A stretch of 23,033 nt of DNA. Origin: a virus. This document shows positions 820 through 20,347 of the stretch, piece by piece (position 1 is the stretch's first letter; each line of letters begins with the position of its first letter). The notes under the pieces are model-generated. The model ran no database searches and had not been told where the DNA came from. It saw nothing but the letters and a program-made list of their open reading frames with translations. The DNA lies in the IMG/VR virus record IMGVR_UViG_3300010297_003953, positions 1-23,033 of that record. One strand, given 5' to 3'. The translations under genes and the position numbers were made by a program.

Positions 820-1530
820 TTAATTAATTGTTTGATAAAATTCATTTTGGCGCCTTTGTCTCTCTAACGCCTTAATGTGTATAATACACCAATCTTGAGT
901 TGCTTTTGGATCTATGTCCTGGTCGTATTCGTAATTAAATAACCTTGCTGACGATTTATGATTTTTTATCACTTCATGAACAGCATTTTCCCAACAAATT
1001 TCAGGCTTGTTTTTCATAAGTCGTGCTTGTAAATCTGGGAAATTAACAACATGGTAATCGTATTCTTTAGCAATAGGAAATTGCAAATTGTTAGTAACAT
1101 TCCATCTTTGTGATATTGCGTACTCAGGTGTTAAGCCTTTGACGATATTGATTCGTGGTAACCAAAATAAATCAGTATCTGTATTTTCGCTCAATAATAA
1201 TTTTATATGCATTAATAATCCATCACCTAATAACTCATCAGCATCGATCTGAAACACATATTGCTTCGTGCAATTCTTCTTCAAGTTGTTTTTGAAAGAC
1301 GCAAAATCTTTATTTAGTGGATACTCTATGATTTTTAATTCACACGAGCACGCCGTCTCAAATACTTTCACAACCTGCTTAACCTCATCGGTTGTATTAC
1401 CTTGATCAAACTGAATTACAATTTCATCTGAATCGTCAACAAACTGATTTAATTGCGTTAATAAGCTATCTAACTCGTCGTGCTCATTACAAACCGGTAT
1501 GCAATATGAAATTGTTATATTTGTATTCAC
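820..1530 (-). CDS. Family 2 glycosyltransferase
   Basis: A 236-residue GT-A type glycosyltransferase. The N-terminus has the GT2 pattern: a first strand ending in YCIPVCNE, then EIVIQFDQGNT, and the metal/nucleotide-binding acidic motif QIDADE near residue 97. The C-terminal half has a WENAVHEV segment typical of small GT2 enzymes that build glycans. The start is GTG at 1530, and this GTG overlaps the TGA stop of the upstream 74-aa gene (GTGA), so it is translationally coupled. No membrane segment is seen, so it probably acts in the cytoplasm. It is part of a run of four glycosyltransferase genes. Whether the target is virion protein, host surface glycan or DNA cannot be told. Confidence 0.85.
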   Translation of the reverse strand: MNTNITISYCIPVCNEHDELDSLLTQLNQFVDDSDEIVIQFDQGNTTDEVKQVVKVFETACSCELKIIEYPLNKDFASFKNNLKKNCTKQYVFQIDADELLGDGLLMHIKLLLSENTDTDLFWLPRINIVKGLTPEYAISQRWNVTNNLQFPIAKEYDYHVVNFPDLQARLMKNKPEICWENAVHEVIKNHKSSARLFNYEYDQDIDPKATQDWCIIHIKALERQRRQNEFYQTIN

Positions 1531-1751
1531 TGTCGTATTGTATCATCTCCGTAATTAATCTCCTCGTCAGGACATAGGAAATTACCACTGCTCTTTATTG
1601 TCTCTATTTGCTGCATAAAGGACTCTGAGACCGTCTCTCTTAGCATCATAATAGCTTCAGTAACAGCATCCTGGTTGCATATATCTAAGTCACCAAAGTC
1701 GAACTTGACGTAACCTTGCTTATTATTGTAATTAATTTTAATATCTGTCAT
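1527..1751 (-). CDS. Hypothetical protein (74 aa)
   Basis: A small acidic protein of 74 residues that I do not recognise. It has a short beta-like start (IKINYNNKQGYVKFDF), a helical middle (AVTEAIMMLRETVSESFMQQIETI) and an acidic tail (CPDEEINYGDD). There is no signal peptide or membrane segment. It is the first gene after the promoter at 1773-1801, and its TGA stop overlaps the GTG start of the GT2 gene. It therefore probably heads the operon holding the GT2 and GT9-like genes. Confidence 0.7.
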   Translation of the reverse strand: MTDIKINYNNKQGYVKFDFGDLDICNQDAVTEAIMMLRETVSESFMQQIETIKSSGNFLCPDEEINYGDDTIRQ

Positions 1752-1772
1752 TTTATTTCGTATATGTTATTT

Positions 1773-1801
1773 AATATATGGAATATTTTTTACAATTCCA
1801 A
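1773..1801 (-). promoter_or_regulatory. Phage promoter P1 (TTGGAA-N17-TATATT)
   Basis: On the minus strand TTGGAA (1801-1796) is followed after exactly 17 bases by TATATT (1778-1773), about 20 bases before the ATG at 1751. The spacer holds an A-run, as in three of the four other copies. The TTTGGAA overlaps the stop codon (1803-1805) of the preceding gene. The same architecture recurs at 11382, 18029, 20801 and 21451. Confidence 0.75.
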
Positions 1802-1802
1802 A

Positions 1803-2327
1803 TTATTGTGAATCATTTTCTAAAACTATCGCTGCGTTTCCACACAATTCCATATAATCATCAAATGCATCTGCAAACTTATCGATAGAATACATCTGTA
1901 TTGACTCATTTTCAATTTTAAGAACTTGTAATTTTTCACTACCGTCTTCTAAAATAATTGGATTGAGCATTGTCTGGTGTGTTTGTATATCATCCTTATG
2001 CTCGATAGGTCGTACATTTGCTGTTCTCCAAAATAATTGAAAATTCGTATCCTCATTTACGATTGGCAATAATGCATACTTAAAATGCTGAAACGGCAAT
2101 GGATACCAAACCAGTCCGTGCGCATCAGTATATTTTGAATCTCGACAAGATGGTGACATTGATTTTTCAATCTCAACCAACTCTTTCGAATCTTTATGCC
2201 AATTAGAATATGTTTGATATCCGCAGTCTGTACATAGTTTATATTTAATGTTGCCTTCCGTCTTCTCTGTCAGAACTGTATATTGCTTTGTTATTGGACA
2301 ATTCTCATCGTATCGTAGTTTCTCCAT
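1803..2327 (-). CDS. Hypothetical protein with possible zinc-binding cysteines
   Basis: A 174-residue protein of unknown role. The N-terminal third has a CTDCGY knuckle (Cys32, Cys35) with further cysteines at 10 and 61, which could make a four-cysteine zinc site. The rest looks like a soluble alpha/beta domain with LVWYPLPFQHFKYALLPIV and FQLFWRTANVRPIE segments. It starts at an ATG two bases after the TAA stop of the preceding glycosyltransferase (2330-2332), so it belongs to that operon. Its position between glycosyltransferases suggests a role in the same glycan pathway, but no enzyme motif supports that. Confidence 0.7.
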   Translation of the reverse strand: MEKLRYDENCPITKQYTVLTEKTEGNIKYKLCTDCGYQTYSNWHKDSKELVEIEKSMSPSCRDSKYTDAHGLVWYPLPFQHFKYALLPIVNEDTNFQLFWRTANVRPIEHKDDIQTHQTMLNPIILEDGSEKLQVLKIENESIQMYSIDKFADAFDDYMELCGNAAIVLENDSQ

Positions 2328-2329
2328 AA

Positions 2330-3637
2330 TTATGATTTGGGTTTTATTTTGGGTAATTTCAATTTTGGAAGTGGCAAATCTGGTGCTTTCGTGAGTTCCG
2401 GAGTCTTATCTTCAATATATCGTTCTAAATACTCGACGAGCAAATCACCCATTTTTTCCATAGTGAATTTTTCGAATGTGTGCGCTTGATGTGGCTTCGA
2501 ATGCTCTAGAAAACTATCATACTGTTTAAAACAATTTAGCATTACGTTGGCTGCCACTTGGTAGTTAACTTGGAACCACTGACTCTCTGGAATTATCCAG
2601 TCGTTAACTGCACTCGGATGCACCTTTACCAATGTACCAGGTAGGAGCGCAGCGTAATCTGGATTTAAGAAATCTACTTGTCCACTCCATGCGCTAGCAA
2701 TTACAGGTTTTCCTGTCGTTGTAAATTCCAAAAGCGGTCTTCCAAAGCCTTCTCCCTTTGTAAAACTCACCATAGCTTTTACTTTTTCGTGATGATATAA
2801 ATTATTCATCTCCGAATCTGTCATGTTCCCATGCAGTAAATAAATCGGCGGTAGTTTCGTTTTACCTATATTTTCTACAAGATCGTGAATCTGTTGAATC
2901 TTACTCTTTATATGATTCCGATCCGTCACCGAATATGTTGCACCTGATGTTTTTAATAGTAATGCTGGTTGTTCCTTTGCTGGTAACCCTGCAAACGTCT
3001 GTAAAAATGTGTGTATTAAAGTTCCAATATCTTTTCTATCATGACCTATTTCTCCCTGTAACCAATGCCCACAGAAAAGAAAACAAAAATCATTCGGAAT
3101 ACTATCCAATTCCTCTAAAACGAAATCATGTGCATGGCCAGGATACACCTCTTCGTCAATCCCTTCAAATAAAACTTGGATAGGTGTACGAGCTTCAACA
3201 AGCTCGACTGCTTGATTGTTTTGTTTGTTTCGCTTTTCATATTTAACTGATTCAAATACATTTTTAGAATGCTTGCTCGACACGAGAACCAAATCCATTC
3301 TATTTATTCCCTCTAACCACTCAGCACGACAACCTGTTGTTTCAATTCCTGCTGTAATTCCTATATTATATTTTCCTATCGGCTTGAATTCATTTGGAAT
3401 TGAAATTTGCAAGAAAATATCAGGTTGTGTTTTCAAGCTGGTTGTTATTACTTTAGATTTTAATATAGGGTCATTGTCCAAGGCTCCCATCGGTGTATTT
3501 CCCCACGGAAGAGACATAATTTCAATGTCGCATCCGGCATTAATTAGCGCCTTACAAATATCCCTGGAACGAGCTCCATAACCTGAGCGGGTGTCTGCAG
3601 GACAAGCTATTACTATTTTCTTTTCTTTTATATTCAT
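2330..3637 (-). CDS. Glycosyltransferase, GT4-like (GT-B fold)
   Basis: A 435-residue glycosyltransferase. The N-terminal domain begins with IVIACPADTRSGYGARSRD, the glycine-rich acceptor-side loop seen in GT4-type enzymes. The C-terminal domain has the sugar-nucleotide motif KGEGFGRPLLEFTTTGKPVI, which is the EGFG...E pattern used to grip the donor phosphates, followed by SGQVDFL. The last 25 residues are a proline/lysine-rich tail (LPLPKLKLPKIKPKS) that is probably unstructured. No signal peptide or membrane helix is present. It lies 19 bases downstream of another GT4-like gene, so the two may add successive sugars to one acceptor. Confidence 0.85.
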   Translation of the reverse strand: MNIKEKKIVIACPADTRSGYGARSRDICKALINAGCDIEIMSLPWGNTPMGALDNDPILKSKVITTSLKTQPDIFLQISIPNEFKPIGKYNIGITAGIETTGCRAEWLEGINRMDLVLVSSKHSKNVFESVKYEKRNKQNNQAVELVEARTPIQVLFEGIDEEVYPGHAHDFVLEELDSIPNDFCFLFCGHWLQGEIGHDRKDIGTLIHTFLQTFAGLPAKEQPALLLKTSGATYSVTDRNHIKSKIQQIHDLVENIGKTKLPPIYLLHGNMTDSEMNNLYHHEKVKAMVSFTKGEGFGRPLLEFTTTGKPVIASAWSGQVDFLNPDYAALLPGTLVKVHPSAVNDWIIPESQWFQVNYQVAANVMLNCFKQYDSFLEHSKPHQAHTFEKFTMEKMGDLLVEYLERYIEDKTPELTKAPDLPLPKLKLPKIKPKS

Positions 3638-3656
3638 TGTTATAGTTTCAGTTATA

Positions 3657-5177
3657 TTAATATGCAGTAACTCCTGTTTCTTTCACTACTGGCTGTCCTT
3701 TCACGCGTTCTACGTGTATTCTTGGCCTAGGTTGCCAGACGTTTATCGTATCTTGTATTCCTTTCGCAATTCCATCAGACATTGCTTTAGCTGACATATT
3801 AGCTTCACCTAATAGCCATTCGCGACCTTCTTGTCCAACTTTACGTAAAGTTGCCCGACCTGTTTTCCATGCGTCGTATATTGCGTTTGAAATTGTAAGC
3901 GGATCAGCAATATCATCAAAAATATATGGTGTTGGTACAGATCCTTGCAATGTTCTAACATGAGGAAATATAGGAAATGCCCACGAACCACATTTTGTGT
4001 AATGACCTAAGTGGTTACTACTAATTTCATTGTTTGGTTGAAACCAGTTTCCATCATCATCAACAAATCGCATTTGATCTTGAAGTCCACCTGTTACATT
4101 ATTAATTATTGGTGTCCCGGACATAATAGATTCTGCTGAAGATAGCCCAAATCCTTCGTTGCTAGCAATGTTTATTGTAACATTTGCAACATTATATAAA
4201 AAGTTCATTTTTTCAGGTGCTAATCTATCAGTATGAAACATTATATTGCAATCGGGTGCCAGCGTATTTTGAGTTGCTATCAAATCTGTGCCGTGCCTGT
4301 CTACCGGATCTGTATGTAATAATAGTAATGTCTCGTTACGATGCTTAGCTGGTAATTGGTCAATAAATAACTTAAATGCATATATTAAATCACCTGGGCG
4401 CTTTCTTTTAATGTTTCGATTGTTCCAAAATACAACAAATCGAGGTGCTTTTTTAAAGCCCTTAAATAAATCCTTTTTAAATTTCACAAATTCATCCCAA
4501 TCTCGATCACCGGATTTTAGTGGCCTGAACATATTGCTATCAATACCATGCGGTACATACTTTGTAATAACACTGCCCGGTTTATAATCTGAAAGAAGAT
4601 CGCCATTTTCCAAATCAACAACATCTGTACCTCCGTACTCTAATACTTTAGTATGAATCAAATGCGACTGTTTACTAATTCCTAAAATGCAATCACACGA
4701 TGCATAGGCTGAATGGTTCCATAATGGATATGGAAAATTGTCCCAAATTGCATAATATATTATTGGTATCTTGTATTGGAAGTGAATTTCATCTTCCATT
4801 TCATATAACCAGCCCCAAAATCTTGGATCTGTAAAATGTATAATCGCATCTGGTTTTTCTGTGTCAAGCAGTCTACGCAATTTGTTTGGATCACCGTATC
4901 CTGTTGATGGATACAATTTAACGATCGCATCATCTACACCTGTTATTTTGCGTGCTTCTGCACTATAATCAATCACTTTGCCGTCATTTGGATGTTTAAC
5001 AGCAGCTGCTAACTGTACCCAATTAAACCGATCAACTGTTCCAAATACGAATGTACGAGACATGGTTGCAATACCAGAAAATGCCGTCAGATCATCTCCT
5101 AACAATAATATTTTTGGTCTCTTTAAACTCGCCTCAGATATTTTCTGCAGCTTTGGTAACTTTATTTTATTTTCCAT
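3657..5177 (-). CDS. Glycosyltransferase, GT4-like (GT-B fold), large form
   Basis: A 506-residue GT-B glycosyltransferase. It has a Rossmann-like N-terminus (KILLLGDDLTAFSGIATMSR), a conserved middle (RFVVFWNNRNIKRKRPGDLI, the start of the donor-binding domain), and the donor motif NEGFGLSSAESIMSGTPII followed by VTGGLQDQM. This is the EGFG...E signature of GT4 enzymes. The length exceeds the usual 350-430 residues, with the extra sequence mainly in the last 130. It starts at ATG 5177, 39 bases after the SLOG-like gene, in a short AT-rich spacer with no clear copy of the repeated promoter. It resembles its downstream neighbour in layout, so the pair could be an old duplication. Confidence 0.85.
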   Translation of the reverse strand: MENKIKLPKLQKISEASLKRPKILLLGDDLTAFSGIATMSRTFVFGTVDRFNWVQLAAAVKHPNDGKVIDYSAEARKITGVDDAIVKLYPSTGYGDPNKLRRLLDTEKPDAIIHFTDPRFWGWLYEMEDEIHFQYKIPIIYYAIWDNFPYPLWNHSAYASCDCILGISKQSHLIHTKVLEYGGTDVVDLENGDLLSDYKPGSVITKYVPHGIDSNMFRPLKSGDRDWDEFVKFKKDLFKGFKKAPRFVVFWNNRNIKRKRPGDLIYAFKLFIDQLPAKHRNETLLLLHTDPVDRHGTDLIATQNTLAPDCNIMFHTDRLAPEKMNFLYNVANVTINIASNEGFGLSSAESIMSGTPIINNVTGGLQDQMRFVDDDGNWFQPNNEISSNHLGHYTKCGSWAFPIFPHVRTLQGSVPTPYIFDDIADPLTISNAIYDAWKTGRATLRKVGQEGREWLLGEANMSAKAMSDGIAKGIQDTINVWQPRPRIHVERVKGQPVVKETGVTAY

Positions 5178-5215: not shown

Positions 5216-5620
5216 TTATTTCAAGATAAGATATGATTTATTCATTTTCTTGCACATTTTCAGTGCTGCAGCAATCTCTTTTTCAAGAGAACCTGTTTTT
5301 GGTAAGAAGAATAAAATACGATCGGAATCAATAATAAGCTTTCTATATCTGTCGTGGAAGTGGCTTGGGTGAAACCCCTTTCCATAATATTCTTCTGGGA
5401 GTGCAGAATACATTTTATATCCTGTAAATGATGGATTATACTCCAGATATTTCAATCCAAAATTCAGTGCTTCCTTTTTAGCAAATAATTCTGCACCCGT
5501 ATCTGTACCTCCTGATAATATAACCAATGTTGGTCCGAATCGACTTTTTAATTTTTGTAGGCAGTCGACGACAAGGCTGCGTTTAACGAAGTTTCTAGAT
5601 CCTATGATTCCTAAATTCAT
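5216..5620 (-). CDS. SLOG-superfamily (DUF2493/YspA-like) nucleotide-binding protein
   Basis: A 134-residue Rossmann-type protein. The family signature is clear: GIIGSRNF at residues 4-11, then ILSGGTDTGAELFAKKEA at about 34-51, then a late strand DRILFFLPKTGS. SLOG-fold proteins bind nucleotide-derived ligands; members include DprA, LOG phosphoribohydrolases and sensors in conflict systems. The specific ligand here is unknown. The gene sits 9 bases downstream of the iron-sulfur nuclease gene, so the two are probably co-transcribed. A nucleotide hydrolase, a nucleotide sensor or a DNA-handling helper are all possible. I am fairly sure of the fold but not of the function. Confidence 0.75.
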   Translation of the reverse strand: MNLGIIGSRNFVKRSLVVDCLQKLKSRFGPTLVILSGGTDTGAELFAKKEALNFGLKYLEYNPSFTGYKMYSALPEEYYGKGFHPSHFHDRYRKLIIDSDRILFFLPKTGSLEKEIAAALKMCKKMNKSYLILK

Positions 5621-5629
5621 TTTTTCTTT

Positions 5630-6640
5630 TTATAATTCCCCAATTACCCGTTCATCAGGTGGGCACAAATCATGTCGATCATTATAGTTACAAAATTTAC
5701 AGTTCCAATTTTCACGCTTTCCTTGAAGTGCTTGATGCGAGATATCTAAGTATTCACCGCTCTTATCAAAACAACTATCAATAAAGTATTGAAAATCCTT
5801 TTCTACACGTTTTATAGATACTTTTCCGGATGCCGGTTTAAATTGCGATACTCTTGGTATTGGCCATAGACTATCTTCATCAATTTTTTGTCTTACTATA
5901 AAATATTCAATATCAACTTTTTCTGGATCAATGCCAAATTTTTCGCAAAAATATTTTTTATACAAAACAAGCTGGTTGGTTACAGTTTTGTCCTGTCTCT
6001 TGTATTTGTTCCATCCGTTACGAGCCGTTTTTATATCAATAATCCGATACTTTCCGCTAACTTTATTATAAAACACGAGATCCAAATGCGATTGTAATTT
6101 AATAGTTGGCCTATTCGGATCAGGTGCAATAAAAATTGGTATTTCTATACCAACCAATGTCGTATTTTTGCTGCTAAAATATGTGGTTCGTTTTTTCAAA
6201 ATGTATTTTAAAATCTGACAACCATCATGATAAAATTCCGCTAATTCCTCCTTTGAGGAATAATGCACACCACCCAATTCGTCTATGTCTTTTGTATATA
6301 ATGTTTTCAATTTATTTAAAAAAATTGCATTCCAATCAGTTTCTTTGGCTTTTTTGACAGCTTTTTTATAGCAAACATACAGCATCTCTTGAATAGTTTC
6401 GTGCATGGCCGTACCATAAACGAAATAAATGTTTTGCTCTGGAACACGATGTTTTCTAACATACCTCAGCTCCCATGATTTCGGGCACTTTTTAAATTTC
6501 GCATATTGTGAGTAAGATACTAATTTCTCAGTATCGAACTGTATACTGTCACCAACGCAAAGTCCAAATATACCTTCAGCAAAAACAAGTCCACCACCTT
6601 CTTCTTCAATTAGAATTTCCTTTTTTTTCTTTGTTCTCAT
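5630..6640 (-). CDS. PD-(D/E)XK nuclease with Fe-S cysteines, Cas4/RecB-like
   Basis: A 336-residue nuclease of the PDDEXK_1 (Cas4/RecB) type. It has motif GTAMHE with His80, an acidic residue in SHLDLVF (Asp187), the core IIDIKTA (Asp202, Lys204), and a following QLVLYK motif. Four cysteines, Cys52 near the N-terminus and Cys314, Cys317 and Cys326 at the C-terminus, match the C...CxxC...C cage that holds a 4Fe-4S cluster in Cas4 and AddB. Family members are single-strand exonucleases or end-processing nucleases. The ATG at 6640 overlaps the TGA stop of the gp62-like clamp-loader gene (ATGA), tying it to the replication block. A recombination or replication-fork role is likely. Confidence 0.85.
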   Translation of the reverse strand: MRTKKKKEILIEEEGGGLVFAEGIFGLCVGDSIQFDTEKLVSYSQYAKFKKCPKSWELRYVRKHRVPEQNIYFVYGTAMHETIQEMLYVCYKKAVKKAKETDWNAIFLNKLKTLYTKDIDELGGVHYSSKEELAEFYHDGCQILKYILKKRTTYFSSKNTTLVGIEIPIFIAPDPNRPTIKLQSHLDLVFYNKVSGKYRIIDIKTARNGWNKYKRQDKTVTNQLVLYKKYFCEKFGIDPEKVDIEYFIVRQKIDEDSLWPIPRVSQFKPASGKVSIKRVEKDFQYFIDSCFDKSGEYLDISHQALQGKRENWNCKFCNYNDRHDLCPPDERVIGEL

Positions 6641-7415: not shown

Positions 7416-8351
7416 TTATTTTTGCATCGCGATGATTTCTATAAGCATTGCAACAGCGGAAATCTCTTTATCTACCACTAGAGCATCAGCACGTTGTGCT
7501 TCTGCTATTTTTAGTATCATTGCCCCTTCTTTCCCCTCAGGTGCTATTTCTGATGCATTGTCATACAAATATCGAAAAAGATCCTGGAAATCCCTTATTG
7601 ATGTATCTGCGATAATCTGTCGTATCTCTCTATACTTGTCTTTCGGGGCTTTTTTAGTATTTTTTAATATTTCTGCAATTTTATCTAAATAGTCAAGAAC
7701 AGATTTTTGTAAATCATCTAGGACCAATTTTCCATCTTTTACTTGCTGCTGCGTATAAGAAATGCAGCGTCTGATGTCTGGATAATTTTTCTTTATAATC
7801 TGGCCAACATCTTTTATATCATATTGTACACTTTCTTTTTGCAGTATCTCTGCGATCCGCATCGCTACTGCTTTTGGAGAAGGTGGAAATACTTCAAATA
7901 CTGTGCACCGACTCTGAATTGCATCGATTATCTTTTCCGGATAGTTGCACGTCATTACAAAACGCGATCTTTTTGAAAATTTCTCCATCATATTTCTCAA
8001 TACTGCTTGAGCATTCGGTGTCAGATAATCAGCTTCATCCAGCAATACGAGTCTCCATTTTCGAAAACTACTTGCAGACACAAAACTTTTTATTTTGCTT
8101 CGAATCGTGTCGACGGAGTTTTCGTCTGACGCATTTAAGTATAGAACATCACAATCGAGTGTATGAGTAATTATTTCTGCGAGCGTTGTTTTTCCTGTAC
8201 CAGCTCTCGCATAGAATAATAGATGTGGAATATCCTCGCTATCTAAATATTTTTGTATTGTTGCTTTCAGTGCATCATTACCTACATATTCTTCTAATAA
8301 CTGTGGTCTGTATTTTTCGACCCATAATGTATTTTTTATTGGATTTTGCAT
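7416..8351 (-). CDS. 44: Clamp-loader AAA+ ATPase, gp44-like
   Basis: A 311-residue clamp-loader ATPase. It begins with TLWVEKYRP, the hallmark start of the RFC/gp44 family. Walker A is GTGKTT (51-56), Walker B is LVLLDEAD (101-108), a sensor-1 type TCNYPEK lies at 134-140, and the SRC arginine-finger motif is at 147-149. The length matches T4 gp44 (319 residues). It hydrolyses ATP to load the sliding clamp at primer-template junctions. Its 5' end overlaps the upstream glycosyltransferase-like gene by 16 bases, an unusual neighbour for a replication gene. All catalytic motifs are intact. Confidence 0.93.
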   Translation of the reverse strand: MQNPIKNTLWVEKYRPQLLEEYVGNDALKATIQKYLDSEDIPHLLFYARAGTGKTTLAEIITHTLDCDVLYLNASDENSVDTIRSKIKSFVSASSFRKWRLVLLDEADYLTPNAQAVLRNMMEKFSKRSRFVMTCNYPEKIIDAIQSRCTVFEVFPPSPKAVAMRIAEILQKESVQYDIKDVGQIIKKNYPDIRRCISYTQQQVKDGKLVLDDLQKSVLDYLDKIAEILKNTKKAPKDKYREIRQIIADTSIRDFQDLFRYLYDNASEIAPEGKEGAMILKIAEAQRADALVVDKEISAVAMLIEIIAMQK

Positions 8352-9391
8352 ACTATTTCTAAAAATTTATCTGATTTAAAATATTTGTCGTGTATTCTTT
8401 CTAATTCTGAGTCTCTGTTTAAATTTTCATAATTTTCCATATATGATACAAGCCGCTCTTCAAGCTCTTCTGAACCTCTTACAAAATTCAAGTATTTTCC
8501 TTTCAGTATTTTGTGATCATATAACCACCTTTCATCAAATATCTCTGCATACAATGGTATATCTGGTAATATTGGCAATGCCCCAAGTACCATTGCTTCA
8601 TAAATTGAAAATGGATTTTGATCAGATATATTTGTCGAAAATATAACTTTTGCCCGACTCAATAATTTCAAATAGCTTGCAGAATCCAATGAATGATCGT
8701 GTATATTAACAAACGTATATTTCGGAAATTGATTCGAAAATACCTTAGCTAACTTCTGATCAAAATTAGAAGACGGCGTTCCATTAATCAGCACAATATC
8801 CTCCTTTGTTTCAGAGCCATATGTATTGCGCAATTCACTAATAATTGAAGTATATGGAATCGGGCATTTAATAATCGAGTCTGCGTGTTTTGTTGAATAT
8901 GTTTTCAGCATTCGATCAAATGACTGCAACGGCACTAAGTTGTAATCGTAACAGTAAAATAAGGCACGCTCGAATCTCTCTGACCACTTGTATTTTCTTC
9001 CACGCAATTTCGTACGAACATCACCACTTTGATGATACATTGAATCTAACCAAAAACCAATAAAGGTAGCATCAATACTATGAAATTCGCAAAATTCCTT
9101 TATCTGTATTGCGAGTGCATCACGGGCATTTGGAAATATAAATAAAAATTTTGAATCACTTGCAATCCCCGTTTCCCATCTTTGTGCAAAATAACTTGTT
9201 AAATTTTTTAAATGTTCGCGATGCATCGTAAATCGGTGGAAGTTGTATTTGTCAGGTGTGTATTTGCCTGGTATCATTTTAACAGTTGATATATTTGGTA
9301 ATTTTAATATCTCTTGGCCTGCGTGTTCCCAGGCTTTTGATACGTTAGCACCACTTATAATATTATCAACAATTACAACTTCCACCTCCAA
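8336..9391 (-). CDS. Glycosyltransferase-like protein (GT-B fold) within replication genes
   Basis: A 351-residue protein resembling a GT-B glycosyltransferase. The C-terminal half has DQNPFSIYEAMVLGALPILPD, which matches the donor-binding 'E.FGl..lEAma.G.PvI' block with the first acidic residue replaced. The N-terminal domain is divergent. The annotated start is TTG at 9391, four bases below the stop of the previous gene; GTG at 9385 is in frame and equally possible, and no ATG is near. The 3' end overlaps the gp44-like gene by 16 bases. T4 encodes DNA glucosyltransferases, so DNA glycosylation is one option, but it could equally belong with the glycan module at 1-5177. Confidence 0.65.
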   Translation of the reverse strand: MEVEVVIVDNIISGANVSKAWEHAGQEILKLPNISTVKMIPGKYTPDKYNFHRFTMHREHLKNLTSYFAQRWETGIASDSKFLFIFPNARDALAIQIKEFCEFHSIDATFIGFWLDSMYHQSGDVRTKLRGRKYKWSERFERALFYCYDYNLVPLQSFDRMLKTYSTKHADSIIKCPIPYTSIISELRNTYGSETKEDIVLINGTPSSNFDQKLAKVFSNQFPKYTFVNIHDHSLDSASYLKLLSRAKVIFSTNISDQNPFSIYEAMVLGALPILPDIPLYAEIFDERWLYDHKILKGKYLNFVRGSEELEERLVSYMENYENLNRDSELERIHDKYFKSDKFLEIVCKIQ

Positions 9392-10026: not shown

Positions 10027-10602
10027 TTATACTTTACAGATATATGGTAAATTGCGTGAGTTTCCATCTTCATCATCCATACCGCAACCGATGAGCCACT
10101 CGTCGTCAATAATAAATGCAGTAAATATATTTGAGTAAATACCTTCTAATAAATCTAAATCCTGTTGCGCATTTTTTCTCCTTGCGTATGTAACAAGTAC
10201 GGCATCCTCGATATTCAATATTTTTGAATATTCCTCTACAACTTTTAAAGCCGTTTTTCCGGAATCCAAAATATCATCAAATACTACAAGACGAATTCCA
10301 GTAGAATCAATTCCGTCAAACAACGACGCTTGATAGTTAGCGTCTTGAGAATTTAATTTATTATCAAATCGTTGAAATTTTATTTCTCCTTGAGTTTTTC
10401 CTGTATATGATTTACATTGACAGAAATCAATTTCTGCGGGAAATGCTGTGTATTTTGACACGTCGCTGATTATTCTATATCCTCCGTTCAGAATACCAAC
10501 AAATAATGTACGCATTGGTTTTAGTTTCTGAACTTGGTTTAGTTGTTTTGCTAAAGATATATTAGCTTCTTGAATTTCCTGATAATTGAATAGTTTTTCC
10601 AT
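10027..10602 (-). CDS. hpt: Hypoxanthine/guanine-type phosphoribosyltransferase
   Basis: A 191-residue type I phosphoribosyltransferase. The PRPP-binding loop is VVFDDILDSGKT at residues 106-117. The C-terminal FIIDDEWLIGCGMDD and RNLPYI (about 163-187) match the purine-binding end of hypoxanthine-guanine phosphoribosyltransferases. The early VGILNGGY is the family's PPi loop. The enzyme joins a purine base to PRPP, giving IMP or GMP. It starts six bases after the clamp stop, so it is in the clamp operon. DpdA-type base exchange would release guanine, so this enzyme could recycle it; that link is an inference. A relaxed specificity for another purine or deazapurine cannot be excluded. Confidence 0.85.
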   Translation of the reverse strand: MEKLFNYQEIQEANISLAKQLNQVQKLKPMRTLFVGILNGGYRIISDVSKYTAFPAEIDFCQCKSYTGKTQGEIKFQRFDNKLNSQDANYQASLFDGIDSTGIRLVVFDDILDSGKTALKVVEEYSKILNIEDAVLVTYARRKNAQQDLDLLEGIYSNIFTAFIIDDEWLIGCGMDDEDGNSRNLPYICKV

Positions 10603-11422: not shown

Positions 11423-14092
11423 TTAAAATTTAAAAAAATTATTAGCGATTGCGTTTAATTGTATAGGACCCCATTCTAAAGATGACCAAAAATTTTGAAG
11501 TTTATTTAATAGGTAATTATTAAAATTCGTATCGTGATCGATGTATTTTTCAACAAATTCAACTATTCTCTCGTCATCTTCAAAACCCTTTAATGCAATA
11601 CGATCAAAATTTAATTGATTTCTTTTAATATATGTCCAAATGATTTTGTCACCATTTACAATATTGGGCACTGCAGCATTCTTGAATTTATTCAATAAAT
11701 CATTATAGTTTAATGCAGCATTTACATGAGCAGGTGTTCCCTTTTTCCTAACACCGAAACGACCGGTTGTGTATTTTTCGATATCCTTTACACCTGTCGG
11801 CATCATAATATTTTTATAATCAACTGAATACATATTCTTTTTGAATGTTCGCACTTTCTCATTTAATGTATCTTTATCAGCGTCATGTAAGATATCTGTA
11901 AGAATTCCATTCATAAAATCTCTAAATAGCGGCGGAAAATTTGACCTTACAACATCCAAACCTTTAACATCCATTTCATCAACACGATGACCTTCCTGAT
12001 CAACTATCCACATTGCATATCTCTTCTTTACTCCCTCAAATTTTTTACTCTTGGTATCTGTGTTACCGACCCAAAATGCCCTCTTTGCAATAAGCTCTTG
12101 TTTAATATCCCATCGATGAGAATTAATATTATGAAGACGCTTTGCATACACATCGAATGATTTATTTATATAGGTTTGTACATCGTTAATAATACCTTTG
12201 GATTTTTCAATAATTTCTGCATCCGTATAATTTTCCATAGGTCCAAATCGATTGATAAAAAGTGGCTCGAGTGGCTCGAATATGGAATCAGTATCGGTGT
12301 AAATACAAAAGGATTTATTATTCGCTGTCTTGGATGCGATACCTAACTCTTTATTATAAAAATGATCTGCTGCTTTTGATGAGTGGTGAATAACTGATTG
12401 TCCTGTAAGCGTGACAGCTTCGCCATTTTGTTTATCATAGAATCTAAATGACGGTAACAGCAATACACCATAAAATGAATTGAGTAAGATTTTTGTTATT
12501 AGCTGCTGACCATCATAATATTCTGCATTTTTTATATCACCCTCCTTTTCATATTTTTTTCGTAAATTTTTATACTCCGAGCGTTCGTCGAACCACATTT
12601 TCAAAATCGCAGGTATAACTCCTTCCTTTTTTTGATCATATATCACACCATTACTCGCAATACCATATTCGTTTTCATCCAACCACTTTTTTAAGTTGCT
12701 TGACCCTTGTAGTTCTATGTGCATAGGTTTCGATTCATCGAAAGAATCATCAAAATTACCTAATACAGTATTATCAGAATAAAAATTCACATTATATGTT
12801 GATTGTGTTCCTTTTGCATATTCTAACTCATCCCACGATTCTATAATCCCAACTTTAGTTTCTGGAGATATATTTAGTGAGATTATTATACTCGGATAAA
12901 GCGATGTCAGATCCAAATCATAGACCCACTTATATAAGCCAGGAGTTGGCTTTCTAACAAACGCACCTTGAGCTTTACCAGATGCGGCTGAGCGATTTGC
13001 TGACGCGACCATATTATTTCGCTTACAGTATGTTAGAAACGCACCATCCAAATACATCGATGTAAAGAGTATGTCTTGGTGCTGAACGTGCCCTTTATGA
13101 CATAGTCCTAAGCCGGTCATGATTAGGCGCATTTTTTCTTCCAACGCAACTACCAGCTCGACATCTACAATATTATACTTTGCAAATTTGACAATATCAG
13201 TTTTATATAAATGATCCAAGTCCCCCTCGTATTCTATCTTACCTCTATATAATTCGAACTTTGCGATAGTATCTAATCGATAATTACTCTGATCAGTAAA
13301 TGTAAATTTACGATACATTGTAAGATAATCATATATAGTTACACCAGCTATCGAAATTGTTTGGCGTTCTTTTAAATATGTCCTTTTGACTATTTTAGCA
13401 TCGGGACTAAATAAATCTGCAAATGCATAATCAAATAATTTGACAATACGATTATACAAATATGGCATATCAAAAAACTCAACGTTCCATCCTGTAATAA
13501 TATTGTGCCCAATTTTTTGATATCGCATCATAAAGCTCCGGAGTAGCTCACGTTCACTATGAAATGTGATTATATCAACATCAATAGTTTTCGTTTTTCC
13601 ATCAACGATCTGGCCGTTCTCTTTTTTCTTCAGTTGTATGTCGACCGTTGTATTTTTTGTAGATGCATTGCCTGGATCTAATAGCAAACACGTATATTTA
13701 TCATCTCCGGTAGCAACATATGTTATTGCTGTTACTGTATTGTCGGCATCTTCAGGTGTGCTGTATGCGTCTTCTTTTGCAACCTCTATATCCAAATATA
13801 GTATCTTTGTCTGATCCGATACTTTATCACTGTCTAAGTATTTATCAATTAAAAATCTCGTTGTAGGAGATACATTATGCTCATATACCATACCCATTTT
13901 TTCAGCCTCTGGCGACCAAGTGGATACTTTTTTGCAACGATGATTATCAATAGTAATGCAATCGCCATTTTTATCTACTATATAGGCATATGGCTCATAT
14001 TTGAAAACCTTGTACCCAGAATCATCGTGTTGCCCGTCGCCCCATAAATGTATTTCTGATCTGCTGCTATTATAGTAAACCGATCTATACAT
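11423..14092 (-). CDS. 43: Family B DNA polymerase, T4 gp43-like
   Basis: An 889-residue replicative DNA polymerase close to T4 gp43 in length (898). The exonuclease motifs are intact: Exo I LDIEV (Asp101, Glu103), Exo II GWNVEFFDMP (Asp208) and Exo III YNIVD (306-310). The polymerase motifs are intact too: motif A DLTSLYPS (394-401), motif B KILLNSFYG (534-542) and motif C YTDTDS (598-603). It should be both polymerase and proofreader. The ATG at 14092 overlaps the end of dpdA by 8 bases, so the polymerase is translated from the same message as the 7-deazaguanine genes. No intein or intron is seen. Confidence 0.96.
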   Translation of the reverse strand: MYRSVYYNSSRSEIHLWGDGQHDDSGYKVFKYEPYAYIVDKNGDCITIDNHRCKKVSTWSPEAEKMGMVYEHNVSPTTRFLIDKYLDSDKVSDQTKILYLDIEVAKEDAYSTPEDADNTVTAITYVATGDDKYTCLLLDPGNASTKNTTVDIQLKKKENGQIVDGKTKTIDVDIITFHSERELLRSFMMRYQKIGHNIITGWNVEFFDMPYLYNRIVKLFDYAFADLFSPDAKIVKRTYLKERQTISIAGVTIYDYLTMYRKFTFTDQSNYRLDTIAKFELYRGKIEYEGDLDHLYKTDIVKFAKYNIVDVELVVALEEKMRLIMTGLGLCHKGHVQHQDILFTSMYLDGAFLTYCKRNNMVASANRSAASGKAQGAFVRKPTPGLYKWVYDLDLTSLYPSIIISLNISPETKVGIIESWDELEYAKGTQSTYNVNFYSDNTVLGNFDDSFDESKPMHIELQGSSNLKKWLDENEYGIASNGVIYDQKKEGVIPAILKMWFDERSEYKNLRKKYEKEGDIKNAEYYDGQQLITKILLNSFYGVLLLPSFRFYDKQNGEAVTLTGQSVIHHSSKAADHFYNKELGIASKTANNKSFCIYTDTDSIFEPLEPLFINRFGPMENYTDAEIIEKSKGIINDVQTYINKSFDVYAKRLHNINSHRWDIKQELIAKRAFWVGNTDTKSKKFEGVKKRYAMWIVDQEGHRVDEMDVKGLDVVRSNFPPLFRDFMNGILTDILHDADKDTLNEKVRTFKKNMYSVDYKNIMMPTGVKDIEKYTTGRFGVRKKGTPAHVNAALNYNDLLNKFKNAAVPNIVNGDKIIWTYIKRNQLNFDRIALKGFEDDERIVEFVEKYIDHDTNFNNYLLNKLQNFWSSLEWGPIQLNAIANNFFKF

Positions 14093-15308
14093 TCACAGCT
14101 GATTTTTCTACAAAAAATTCATGCTTTACTATTTCATTCTTAGGTCGATGTTTTGTTAATTGCGGCAATACTCTTTGAAATTCCTTTCGTGGATTGTCTG
14201 ATTTTATAATTTTGTCGATCAGCTTTATATTCTTGAACATTTGAGTAGATAAAATTTGCTCTTGAAAATATTCATGTGAATGCACAACATTATGAATATT
14301 TTGCTTTACATCAACAAATGTTGCCATATTAGATAAAACTAATACTGCATACGCCTCACTTTTAAAATGAACAAACGCCTCTGTATCTATATATTCATCC
14401 CTTAATATATTATGTACCTCATTATAAACAGGTGGATACGTTCTGGTGTTTTGATAATCTATCTTTCCGCCTTTCAATGTAATGTCTCTTGGTACATTCA
14501 TAATCTGCCAATCCAGACCTCGGGGTATAAAATACCCACCAAACTTTGCAGATATATTTGGTGTTGATGAATCTGTAGATATTTGTACATGAGAACCTAT
14601 CTCTTCTAATGACTTCTGGACTTGCGTCAGATATACTAATGGTTCTGTTCCTGTTACACCCAAGAAATGTATCCATTCTATATTTTTCTTTTCGTGCTCT
14701 TTGCCATCCATCAATATAGATACCGCGGCCATTATTTGATATAATGCAGCTGTACGTTGATCAACACCAATCGCCCAGCCATTAAATTCAAAATCACAAA
14801 CTCTATTATACCACTTTAAATAATTCTCTTCATGAAGACCTTGAAGAACATTTAAAAACTTTGTTTTACCAGATTGATGCTTTTCAAAATATTTAAAATT
14901 ATTGTAGCTAATGTCTAAACACTCATCGAAGTGACCAGACTTTGATACTTTAGGTGGTATATCTAAATTAGCTGCAATAGTAGAATTGTTCTCTAACCAA
15001 CGGAATATTTTTTCACGTAACTCGTCAGTATACTTTAATTTTCCAGTAGCTATTTGAAAACCACCCGAATCACCAAAAACAACACAATCATCTGGAAAAT
15101 CAAATCCTTTAATGTATTCTTCTTTTTTGTACAAATGCCCTGCTGTTGTTAGATACGCCGGTATTCTATAATCTGAGGGGTATTCTTCAGAATAATAGCG
15201 AAATGGTAACTTTTTATTTGGTGTCCACTGGTTTTTCACCATCATTGCAGATATAGGTCCCGCACTATTTGCTGGGAAATAAAATAATTTCTTATTTAGT
15301 TCGTTCAT
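14085..15308 (-). CDS. dpdA: DpdA-like DNA guanine transglycosylase
   Basis: A 407-residue TGT-like protein of the phage DpdA kind. It carries the TGT signature DSGGFQ (Asp80 to Gln85), LNVLQGLHE (about 152-160), GWAIGV (177-182) and a TDSSTP segment with Asp246, the likely nucleophile position. The C-terminal CxCxxC zinc site of tRNA TGTs is absent. DpdA swaps guanine in DNA for a 7-deazaguanine base (preQ0 in the best-known cases), releasing free guanine. It overlaps queC by 17 bases and the polymerase by 8. Given the adjacent folE and queC, a DNA role is much more likely than a tRNA role. The base actually inserted is unknown. Confidence 0.88.
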   Translation of the reverse strand: MNELNKKLFYFPANSAGPISAMMVKNQWTPNKKLPFRYYSEEYPSDYRIPAYLTTAGHLYKKEEYIKGFDFPDDCVVFGDSGGFQIATGKLKYTDELREKIFRWLENNSTIAANLDIPPKVSKSGHFDECLDISYNNFKYFEKHQSGKTKFLNVLQGLHEENYLKWYNRVCDFEFNGWAIGVDQRTAALYQIMAAVSILMDGKEHEKKNIEWIHFLGVTGTEPLVYLTQVQKSLEEIGSHVQISTDSSTPNISAKFGGYFIPRGLDWQIMNVPRDITLKGGKIDYQNTRTYPPVYNEVHNILRDEYIDTEAFVHFKSEAYAVLVLSNMATFVDVKQNIHNVVHSHEYFQEQILSTQMFKNIKLIDKIIKSDNPRKEFQRVLPQLTKHRPKNEIVKHEFFVEKSAVNV

Positions 15309-15930
15309 TATATTTTTGTATTTCTTTACAATTATTACATTCGCCGCATTGCGTAGTGCTTGAATTAAAACAGTTCCAAAAATCAGACATATTTAATCCA
15401 AAATCATCAATCAATGCATCAAATACTTCGAATTTAGTCATTTTGTTTTGGCGATTTTCCATCAATATTGGATCCATCTTAATAGAACCATCTGTTAAAT
15501 AATTCAACATCGAATCCATATGCAAGTAAAAACCCAACGTCGAATCGGAAAAAGACCACGGTTGTTTATCCTTGTTTAAAGTTTTGCTACCGGAAACAAT
15601 TACAGATGCCCCGATACGTTCTGCTAAGGAGCTTGCCATTGCACCAATCACAAAGTTTCTTAATGGTGTATATATATCCGAGACTTCTTCAACATTGTGC
15701 TCACCTGTAACTGCGCCTCCTACGAATAATCCATCGACCGAAACAATATGCAATTTTATATTGTATTTATCACAAAACTCTAATGCTTTTGCCTTTTCTT
15801 TTTCAAAAGGTAGTTGGTGGTAATCAACAAGAATTCCATGATATTCTGCATCCGTCCCATATTTTTTTATTGCCAATAATGACGATAACATACTATCAGC
15901 ACCACCGGATATTTCCATTAATATTTTCAT
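15292..15930 (-). CDS. queC: 7-cyano-7-deazaguanine (preQ0) synthase
   Basis: A 212-residue QueC. The PP-loop ATP-pyrophosphatase motif SGGADS is at 8-13, and the QueC-type YTPLRNFVIGAMASSLAE block is at about 87-104. The zinc site is Cys187 in FWNC plus CGECNNC (Cys195, 198, 201). It converts 7-carboxy-7-deazaguanine to preQ0 with ATP and ammonia. It is not fused to a glutamine amidotransferase, unlike the Gat-QueC of phages that make archaeosine-type DNA. Its ATG overlaps the aminotransferase stop (ATGA), and its end overlaps dpdA. Confidence 0.92.
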   Translation of the reverse strand: MKILMEISGGADSMLSSLLAIKKYGTDAEYHGILVDYHQLPFEKEKAKALEFCDKYNIKLHIVSVDGLFVGGAVTGEHNVEEVSDIYTPLRNFVIGAMASSLAERIGASVIVSGSKTLNKDKQPWSFSDSTLGFYLHMDSMLNYLTDGSIKMDPILMENRQNKMTKFEVFDALIDDFGLNMSDFWNCFNSSTTQCGECNNCKEIQKYNERTK

Positions 15931-16934
15931 TTACGGCATATTTTTTTAATAATCTTATTCAATTTTTTATATGCTTTCTTATTGTGACCAAACATTCCAA
16001 TTTGGAACTTATCTTTCATATAAACAGAATTGAAATATATTTCCATATTATTTTTCTTCAAGGCTTTAATCACTCGTTTCATCAACGCCTTATCACTGAA
16101 TTTAAATGTCAATACAGGTGCATATCGCTCCCCAAGTAGCGTAAAACAAGTGGTTGAATCAATAACACTAAGAGCCTCACAATTCGCATCAATACATTCC
16201 CGATCGAAAAAATTAGCCGAATTAATTGACTGCAACTGTGGTATCATTGATGTATGCGGTGTTTGGCAATCCTTTTTAGATTCAATATACCTTTTCATAT
16301 TTAAATAATATCCAGATGAACCTATAAGCGGTTTGCTATCTTTTCGATACGCCACAATACCTAATACCGGCAACCCGCGCAATACTTTTGCTGTACTTGA
16401 GCATACTGCTGTTGCATTATATGGTGGAGCGTAATATCCTAATGCCGAAACCATATCGATTATTGTTATAATCCCCTTGTTATTACAATATTCAACTATA
16501 TTATGTAAATTATTATAAGTCGAACTACTGGTCTCGAATGCTACACCACAAAACACGTCAAACGGTACAGTCGAGCTCTGTAATACGTGAAGAGCTTCAT
16601 CAACACTCTGGACAGGCATCGTTACTATTTTGCCAGGTATAGTTTTGCAAATATCATATAATCTATGCCCAAAGCTCCCATTAGTCAAAACCAGCACATA
16701 CTTTGTATGGTCAGCATTACCACCGGATAGATATCCATTTAATGCAACTTCTATTGCTGACGTTCCCGATCCTTGTGTTAATAACACATCGTAATCATTT
16801 GTAAAATACTCAGCTTTTATAATATTACATTTCTCAGCATATAAATTCTTAAATGTATTGCTGCGGTGGTGATAATTTATTTCTACTGTTTGCTTAGATT
16901 TAACAGGACCTGGTGAGAATAAATATTTCTTCAT
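15927..16934 (-). CDS. Class V PLP-dependent aminotransferase inside the 7-deazaguanine operon
   Basis: A 335-residue fold-type I PLP enzyme resembling alanine-glyoxylate and 2-aminoethylphosphonate (PhnW) aminotransferases. It opens with FSPGPV and has QGSGTSAIEVAL (54-65), a TNGSFGHR cofactor segment (84-91), Asp160 in IIDMVSALG for the PLP pyridine nitrogen, and Lys183 in SSTAKVLRGLP for the Schiff base. All cofactor-binding residues are present, so it should be active. It starts one base after the folE stop and overlaps queC by four bases. That suggests a joint role, perhaps making an amino-modified 7-deazaguanine or supplying an amino donor; the substrate cannot be read from the sequence. 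It may also be a desulfurase-type relative, though no catalytic-cysteine loop is evident. Confidence 0.85.
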   Translation of the reverse strand: MKKYLFSPGPVKSKQTVEINYHHRSNTFKNLYAEKCNIIKAEYFTNDYDVLLTQGSGTSAIEVALNGYLSGGNADHTKYVLVLTNGSFGHRLYDICKTIPGKIVTMPVQSVDEALHVLQSSTVPFDVFCGVAFETSSSTYNNLHNIVEYCNNKGIITIIDMVSALGYYAPPYNATAVCSSTAKVLRGLPVLGIVAYRKDSKPLIGSSGYYLNMKRYIESKKDCQTPHTSMIPQLQSINSANFFDRECIDANCEALSVIDSTTCFTLLGERYAPVLTFKFSDKALMKRVIKALKKNNMEIYFNSVYMKDKFQIGMFGHNKKAYKKLNKIIKKICRK

Positions 16935-16935
16935 A

Positions 16936-17523
16936 CTACTTTAGGAATTTTATAAAATTATAGAATTCTTCCCTAACTTCATGACTTTCCAAAAATTCAC
17001 CCGATAATTTGCTTGTCATCATTGTGCTATTATGTTTCACACCTCGTACACAAGCACACATATGATCCGCTTCAATAACTACTGCAACGCCTTTGTTATT
17101 TTCACAAATTTCATTTATATAGCTATGTATCTGCATTGTCAGGTTTTCTTGCACTTGTGGTCTTCGAGCAAACCATTCTACAATACGATTCAATTTAGAC
17201 AATCCAATTACTTTTGTTCCTGGTAAATATGCAACATGAGCTTTGCCAATAAACGGCAACGAATGGTGTGAACATATAGATTTCAAATCAATATTCCCTT
17301 GAAAGACCATTCCATCATACCGGTCGACATTGTTGAATGCGGTAATTTTTGGTGCTTCGTAGTAAATTCCTTGCCACAAATCATCATAGTGTGCCTTTGC
17401 TACACGCATTGGAGTTTCGCGCATATTTGGATCATTCTCCCAATCAAATCCCATTGCCGTTAAGAATTCACCGTATGCCTTTTGTGCTTTTTGTAGCCTT
17501 TCTTCTCTAAACATTTTTTTCAT
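16936..17523 (-). CDS. folE: GTP cyclohydrolase I (type IA)
   Basis: A 195-residue GTP cyclohydrolase I. It has the zinc and catalytic residues CSHH (84-87) and HMCACVRGV (154-162, Cys156), with [20 protein letters not shown] and [10 protein letters not shown] between them, all typical of FolE. It converts GTP to dihydroneopterin triphosphate, the entry step to preQ0 as well as to folate. The location beside queC and dpdA points to the preQ0 use. The ATG at 17523 has AAGGAA about eight bases upstream, one of the few good Shine-Dalgarno sites here. A second Met at residue 4 is a possible start. The gene follows denV by 19 bases. Confidence 0.95.
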
Positions 17524-19552: not shown

Positions 19553-20347
19553 TTACACTTCGCGCATCGTACCAAATGCCATGATGTGCGACCTTGGTGT
19601 AAAGCAATATCCATTCTCAGCACAAAATCGCATAACATCTCCGTAGTTAAGGAATAATAATTCTGGAGTGTCACCTGGTGGCATTATGAATGTTTTGCTT
19701 TTTGGTATTCCCATTTCTACCCTAAACTCTTCAACTTCTTTCCAAGTATCCGGATCTTGTATTGGGTTTACAACAGGCTTATAATGATAATCTTTATGAT
19801 ATGAAATTGACTTTGCAATTGCATCTTTGTTTAATCTAAACTTTTCATGCTGTCTAATAAAGCGTTCGTCAACTTCTGGCCTTCTCATTTCCCACTCCTC
19901 TGGAAATTTAACTCCGAGAACAGGTACTGAGTTGGAGAACTTGGGCGACAAACTTACTAAATCTATTGGAATATCCGTTTCAACAAAATGCGATCCTTCT
20001 GTTTCAATAGTAACAAATAAATTGTATTTGTTTGCAAGATGCATTATCTCATTGCACAATACTGGTTGCATTGTTGGAGAACCACCCGTCAACATAATAT
20101 CAGTAGCTTGTGGATTGTCTTTGATAAAATCTTCAATATCTTGCATTGAATATTTACCTTTCTCTGGAGCTATGGAACTGTACCATGTATCACACCATCC
20201 CCCTTTTTCTCCGAAATAACATCTATGCGTGCAGCCTGTCGTGCGGATCACTATATTTGGCCTACCCAGACGAGATCCTTCACTCTGCACTGCGATGTAC
20301 AGCTCGTTGATAGCTTGTTTTTTACTATAATCTTCAATTCGTTTCAT
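19553..20347 (-). CDS. queE: 7-carboxy-7-deazaguanine synthase, radical SAM
   Basis: A 264-residue QueE. It has the QueE start NELYIAVQSEGSRLGRPNIV, the cluster cysteines Cys39, Cys43 and Cys52 followed by DTWY, TGGSP (87-91), ETEGS (115-119) and SLSPK (132-136). It rearranges 6-carboxytetrahydropterin to 7-carboxy-7-deazaguanine using SAM. The cysteine spacing is C-x3-C-x8-C rather than the usual C-x3-C-x2-C, so a six-residue insertion (about YFGEKG) enlarges the cluster loop. It begins 17 bases after the terminator's T-run. No repeated-type promoter lies in front, so it may depend on read-through or an undetected promoter. It is separated from folE and queC by about 2 kb. Confidence 0.92.
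   Translation of the reverse strand: MKRIEDYSKKQAINELYIAVQSEGSRLGRPNIVIRTTGCTHRCYFGEKGGWCDTWYSSIAPEKGKYSMQDIEDFIKDNPQATDIMLTGGSPTMQPVLCNEIMHLANKYNLFVTIETEGSHFVETDIPIDLVSLSPKFSNSVPVLGVKFPEEWEMRRPEVDERFIRQHEKFRLNKDAIAKSISYHKDYHYKPVVNPIQDPDTWKEVEEFRVEMGIPKSKTFIMPPGDTPELLFLNYGDVMRFCAENGYCFTPRSHIMAFGTMREV

Follow-up and report, generated by a model that had tools for sequence, protein, structure and literature searches.

Phages use 7-deazaguanine pathways to shield their DNA from restriction, and the list of bases made in this way is still growing. An operon that is, by its gene content, of this type lies in the 23,033-nt virus record IMGVR_UViG_3300010297_003953 (positions 1 to 23,033; hereafter the window), and it raises a question: what is a class-V PLP enzyme (hereafter AT) doing between folE and queC? 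The window is part of a tailed phage by content, encoding a ribonucleotide reductase, a B-family polymerase, a clamp and a clamp loader (Pfam, PHROGs), and its main genes all lie on the minus strand.

Gene order and the transglycosylase

Genes for FolE, a QueE-like radical SAM enzyme, a QueC-like protein and a transglycosylase form a single co-directional run (Table 1). The AT open reading frame begins with ATG, contains no internal stops and is intact. It is separated by 1 base from folE, which ends at 16936, and is coupled to queC through a common ATGA that holds the AT stop and the queC start (an overlap of 4 nt); queC in turn overlaps the gene for the 407-aa transglycosylase by 17 bases. 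The initial annotation had described a complete PLP enzyme with Asp160, Lys183 and a GSGT motif, encoded between folE and queC, and on both counts it is borne out: the 335-aa frame is whole, the junctions are as given above, and these residues are invariant in both phage lineages that carry the gene.

Table 1. Genes and residues of the operon, in window coordinates
Feature	Position	Strand	Basis
AT, class-V PLP enzyme, PhnW/AepZ branch, 335 aa	15927..16934	-	ORF; Pfam, NCBIfam, hhalign, Foldseek
AT GSGT, residues 55-58, PLP-phosphate loop	16761..16772	-	sequence; invariant in both lineages
AT Asp160, expected partner of the PLP pyridine nitrogen	16455..16457	-	invariant with PhnW
AT Lys183, expected Schiff-base lysine (SSTAK)	16386..16388	-	invariant with PhnW
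AT Arg186, Lys183 + 3 residues; candidate replacement anion binder	16377..16379	-	alignment
AT Gln311 in FQIG, at the PhnW/AGXT substrate-carboxylate Arg position (FRIG/LRIG)	16002..16004	-	alignment
FolE, GTP cyclohydrolase I	16936..17523	-	Pfam 3.2e-54
QueE-like radical SAM enzyme (7-carboxy-7-deazaguanine, CDG, as product)	19553..20347	-	PHROG 7.1e-43; Pfam Radical_SAM 3.9e-6
QueC-like ATP-dependent enzyme; SGGADS, PxRN, FxD, Cys4	15292..15930	-	Pfam 7.9e-19
QueC Phe127 (E. coli Tyr131, Cap9 Tyr115)	15550..15552	-	alignment
QueC Phe188 (E. coli Tyr189)	15367..15369	-	alignment
DpdA/TGT-fold transglycosylase, 407 aa, short form	14085..15308	-	predicted fold, Foldseek
Transglycosylase Asp80 (DSGGFQ)	15069..15071	-	invariant
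Transglycosylase Asp246, position of the TGT nucleophile	14571..14573	-	invariant

The transglycosylase gene product was assigned to no family by Pfam or NCBIfam. Its AlphaFold2 model, built from 19 phage sequences with a mean pLDDT of 83.3, matches tRNA-guanine transglycosylases (6.5e-9) and the DNA preQ0 insertase DpdA (7ui4; 8.3e-7) in Foldseek searches, with a weak match to Cap10 of type IV CBASS (1.3e-3). Together with the fold, the protein has both the Asp of DSGGFQ and the Asp at the nucleophile position. From its relationship to DpdA we infer that its target is DNA.

Family and active site of AT

AT has an E-value of 4.5e-4 against Pfam Aminotran_5, but its 19.8 bits fall short of the gathering score of 21.5. 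It matches the NCBIfam PhnW-AepZ model at 81.8 bits (E=5.8e-23), short of the equivalog cut-off of 360.8, and PRK13479 (PhnW) at E=5.2e-17, again far under the equivalog cut-off. An hhalign comparison of the AT profile with a set of three PhnW-like proteins, of which two are annotated as PhnW, extends over 304 columns at a probability of 98.6%. The top Foldseek match of the AT model is 7e7g, a 2-aminoethylphosphonate aminotransferase (E=4.6e-14), among 437 PDB matches at E<=0.001; this low-confidence model, made from 4 sequences with a mean pLDDT of 56.6, was used for fold only, and no active-site geometry was taken from it. AT is thus similar to the class-V aminotransferase superfamily in whole-length sequence and in fold, with the Pfam score below threshold, and its closest cellular relatives are PhnW/AepZ enzymes. 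At the level of sequence and predicted fold, these comparisons confirm that AT is a class-V PLP enzyme of the PhnW/AepZ branch. With that branch (TIGR03301, PDB 7e7g, 1m32) it shares the fold, the PLP-site GSGT, Asp, Lys and Thr, and the full-length profile alignment; it differs in being only ~25% identical to PhnW, in a shorter C-terminal domain, where the gaps that make AT shorter than PhnW chiefly fall, and in being encoded among 7-deazaguanine rather than phosphonate genes.

A further difference lies at the expected substrate site. Among the relatives aligned (PhnW, one linked to PntC, and a class-V protein from a Staphylococcus record) the C-terminal motif reads FRIG, FRVG or LRIG, whereas it is FQIG in both phage lineages, with Gln311 in place of the Arg expected in PhnW/AepZ and AGXT-type transaminases. 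In PhnW this Arg presumably binds the acid group of the substrate. In AGXT, Arg360 binds the substrate carboxylate (PMC9340776). Because this residue is Gln in both lineages, AT is, as judged by alignment, neither an ordinary PhnW nor an ordinary keto-acid transaminase, and the class of chemistry that it carries out is unsure. Three residues beyond Lys183, the phage ATs have Arg where two annotated PhnW have Glu; it is possible that the anion site has been relocated, with Arg186 standing in for the lost Arg.

A non-catalytic AT, with a structural or regulatory part to play alongside QueC, would fit the lost substrate Arg, the shortened sequence and the Pfam score below cut-off, but we consider it highly improbable, as GSGT, Asp160, Lys183 and Thr228, the PLP-site residues expected of a class-V enzyme, are all kept between lineages that are 51% identical and under purifying selection.

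Class-V enzymes and PP-loop ATPases are also natural partners in sulfur transfer, and phage NifS-like proteins occur among the viral structure matches; AT might on these grounds supply sulfur to QueC, as a cysteine desulfurase does for a PP-loop ATPase of the TtcA, ThiI or MnmA style, to yield a thio-substituted base. However, the loop before the FQIG strand, where NifS/IscS/SufS desulfurases keep their catalytic Cys, reads NSVYMKD in AT, the conserved cysteines (36, 96, 150, 178, 252 and 333) all lie outside this loop, and sequence models favor PhnW over NifS. We rejected AT as a cysteine desulfurase for want of the catalytic Cys, and give very little credence to a role in sulfur transfer.

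Conservation and distribution

AT is encoded by four contigs that are nearly identical to one another and by a further two from a sister lineage; all carriers belong to these two phage lineages, and all are metagenomic fragments. Gene order in the sister lineage matches that of the window, folE-AT-queC-TGT-polB (TGT being the transglycosylase gene), and in both lineages the junctions are overlapping or nearly so, down to one base. Identity between the lineages is 51% for AT (tblastn), 66% for QueC, 70% for the transglycosylase and 72% for FolE. For AT, comparison of the two lineages gives dN ~0.40 and dS ~2.0, the latter near saturation, and the resulting dN/dS of ~0.2 indicates purifying selection. 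Because order and junctions are kept at 51% identity and with this dN/dS, the placement of AT is not a matter of chance. In one sister contig the transglycosylase gene (L010, 8001-9078) is split into two overlapping ORFs by a frameshift, a deletion or an assembly error; in the other it is whole.

Every copy of the phage AT subfamily that was found lies between folE and queC, and relatives farther off are PhnW-like enzymes of the ordinary kind, encoded in other settings. The outcome that the initial annotation had named as refuting its idea, homologues mostly away from 7-deazaguanine genes, therefore did not arise for the phage subfamily. Host-type metabolic genes are common in phages and the nearest cellular relatives of AT are PhnW/AepZ, so that AT could be a metabolic enzyme (of phosphonate, glyoxylate or amino acids) that merely sits in the operon. 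Yet all close copies occur in this operon, the folE-AT-queC position and its overlapping junctions are conserved in both lineages, and identity to PhnW is low, with the FRIG Arg lost; we regard a metabolic role as quite unlikely.

The wider transglycosylase family was surveyed by scanning viral contigs for GDSGGFQ, from which 80 loci were taken. A search with the AT profile detected its positive controls (the window and L009), whereas the 48 other contigs of this family that were searched gave no match; in the GenBank relatives PA5oct, Phosso, Vibrio 2.275.O and GR7B, the Pfam model, which is less sensitive, gave none either. QueC scored over the cut-off in 2 of 50 contigs of the family. One of these is a short partial match; the other, L204, has a canonical QueC alongside the transglycosylase, QueD and FolE but lacks AT. 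Degenerate AT-motif scans of viral contigs, which demanded an exact motif that diverged homologues would escape, returned only the two lineages, and a QueC motif scan returned only chance matches besides the known contigs. Other matches to TAKxLxGxP, and 19 motif matches in genome contigs, were rejected as not being AT proteins. GenBank phage matches to AT amounted to two unannotated records. In one, a Staphylococcus record, the gene adjoins a serA-like gene and looks like host DNA; in the other, a gut contig, the setting is PntC-like.

The nearest relatives of FolE and the transglycosylase outside the two lineages (62% and 39% identical to those of the window) are encoded by L086, in the order queD-queE-folE-TGT; there folE and TGT are directly adjacent, and both AT and queC are missing. 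Set beside this one cousin contig, the AT-queC pair that separates folE from TGT has the look of a two-gene cassette. Because the tree fork that joins L086 to the window lineage is weak (80/70), gain of the cassette here and its loss in L086 are indistinguishable.

Several neighboring genes are also of note. A glycosyltransferase-like gene, u351 (window 8336-9391, minus strand; L016 13350-14411; also in L088, L119, L127, L134, L136 and L150), has homologues within seven genes of TGT in about 36 of the 80 loci, 1-2 genes upstream in six; in PA5oct its homologue is the gene immediately following TGT. Its product may add a sugar to the modified base, or its position could reflect a shared, conserved replication-gene neighborhood. 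A run of glycosyltransferases occupies 820-5177 (minus strand) of the window and continues downstream in both lineages (L041, L046). Phosphoribosyltransferase-like genes near TGT (window 10027-10602, minus strand; L086 6203-6589; L127 1432-1857) might salvage guanine released by the transglycosylase. In the L086 operon, which lacks queC, a methyltransferase-like gene directly 3' of TGT (5365-6210) is a candidate tailoring enzyme. A family of small proteins with HRHMFH and DDR motifs, encoded beside or close to either TGT or the glycosyltransferase-like gene (L127 1073-1453; L136 7038-7523; L134 2-265), resembles by eye a diverged QueD-type T-fold.

A possible role with QueC, and known systems

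Canonical QueC is marked by SGGxDS, VPxRN, YPDC and Cys4 motifs and by catalytic Tyr131 and Tyr189 (PMC13329287). The phage protein keeps SGGADS, PxRN (as TPLRN), the aromatic-x-Asp motif (as FxD) and Cys4, so that its motifs for ATP, zinc and 7-deazaguanine recognition are retained, with FSDS in place of YPDC; at both catalytic Tyr positions it has Phe in both lineages, where E. coli and six other phage QueC proteins keep Tyr. In E. coli QueC both residues are essential, Y189A being inactive and Y131F partly active (PMC13329287). In Cap9, Tyr115 stacks on 7-deazaguanine, and the Tyr and Asp of the aromatic-x-Asp motif stack on and read the base (PMC13279940). The Phe substitutions of the phage protein could mark an altered or a weak enzyme.

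FolE and QueE of the CDG route (FolE, QueD, QueE) are present, while QueD was absent from the seven contigs, all of which are fragments; no QueF was found on seven to eight contigs, with PF14489 matching only inside folE. Taking context and conservation together, we think it likely that AT is a dedicated PLP enzyme of the phage DNA 7-deazaguanine pathway. It most likely works as a two-gene cassette with its neighbor QueC, acting on the carboxylate/amide at C7 of CDG, and probably helps build an undescribed DNA base, making a new hypermodified base in the DNA of this phage plausible. In the pathway we propose, FolE, QueE and a QueD encoded either by the host or in a stretch of the phage genome beyond these contigs would make CDG. 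Its C7 carboxylate would be turned into a nitrogen-bearing group by AT together with the QueC-like, ATP-dependent ligase, and the DpdA-like enzyme would then exchange guanine in phage DNA for the completed base, so that the AT/QueC step would precede insertion. Short of calling it probable, we suggest that AT together with QueC is a new tailoring module for an undescribed, DpdA-installed 7-deazaguanine side chain, such as an N-substituted 7-carboxamide; AT would then be the first PLP enzyme of any 7-deazaguanine pathway acting on DNA.

Two precedents are instructive for the step itself. In QueC enzymes, ATP is used to activate the CDG carboxylate, which ammonia then attacks, and Cap9 takes a protein amine instead (PMC13279940); phage CmoY couples glycine to the carboxylate of carboxymethylcytosine in DNA (PMC12783734). 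By analogy, AT might make an amine, or deliver one, for QueC to couple to the activated CDG carboxylate, which would leave an amide-type side chain. This role is favored because AT is coupled to queC and neither QueF nor QueD was found on the contigs, but it is a doubtful proposal when taken singly, and no specific AT reaction deserves greater confidence.

Alternatively, AT could interconvert the C7 aminomethyl group of preQ1, perhaps made by a host QueF, and a 7-formyl group, in either direction and before or after insertion into DNA. PhnW-type enzymes interconvert R-CH2-NH2 and R-CHO, and AT weakly matches the model for pyridoxamine-pyruvate transaminase (E=1.3e-4), whose substrate pyridoxamine is an aromatic ring bearing CH2NH2. 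We nonetheless hold this reading unlikely: none of eight contigs has QueF, the Arg for the keto-acid half-reaction is Gln, and the coupling of AT to queC would be left unexplained. The initial annotation had AT building a side chain, for example an amine from an aldehyde. A class-V PLP enzyme in a conserved 7-deazaguanine operon agrees with the general idea, but an ordinary aldehyde-to-amine transaminase is weakened by the Arg-to-Gln change and by the lack of a QueF, and hence of phage-made preQ1, on these contigs. Other PLP chemistry accounts for the remaining possibilities.

Cui and colleagues reportedly described four more phage 7-deazaguanines in 2023, naming a decarboxylase, a formyltransferase and a methyltransferase but no PLP enzyme. 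Our literature search on aminotransferases and phage DNA modification found none described in a 7-deazaguanine pathway, and a search on PLP enzymes in thymidine hypermodification returned no paper. The word 'aminotransferases' is used once in PMC6884629, in a figure legend, for archaeosine-forming enzymes. With none found in GenBank phage 7-deazaguanine loci either, the earlier statement that no class-V aminotransferase is known in these pathways stands for the loci and literature searched. If true, coupling of a PLP enzyme to QueC would bring a new type of chemistry to 7-deazaguanine pathways, and it suggests that DNA bases can be substrates for QueC as an amide ligase, just as proteins are for its relatives.

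Among known systems, the QueC-family CDG-amine ligases (Cap9, type IV CBASS; PMC13279940, PMC13329287) share with the phage QueC the SGGxDS motif, YxQ(x)5E spacing, aromatic-x-Asp and Cys4, and both have a transglycosylase-fold partner, Cap10 being the weak match noted above. The phage gene is instead grouped with folE and queE, a CD-NTase gene being absent, and its product has Phe at the two Tyr positions. This resemblance is one of motifs, from which CDG-amine ligase activity is proposed, and the Q(x)5E spacing does not discriminate the Cap9 type because it also occurs in Gat-QueC, with Cys for Gln. CmoX/CmoY hypermodification (PMC12783734) is likewise a phage system in which a carboxylated base serves as the handle for an ATP-dependent amide ligase, but it uses unrelated enzymes, a cytosine base and no PLP enzyme. 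Closest are the phage 7-deazaguanine systems in which DpdA occurs with FolE, QueD, QueE and QueC (9g, Dp-1, CAjan; PMC6884629), where, as here, FolE, QueE, a QueC-like protein and a DpdA/TGT-fold enzyme are clustered. The AT-containing operon is, by its genes, a new variation on them: it has no QueD, QueF or Gat domain on the known contigs, its QueC is divergent, its DpdA is short (~400 aa), and a class-V PLP enzyme has been added.
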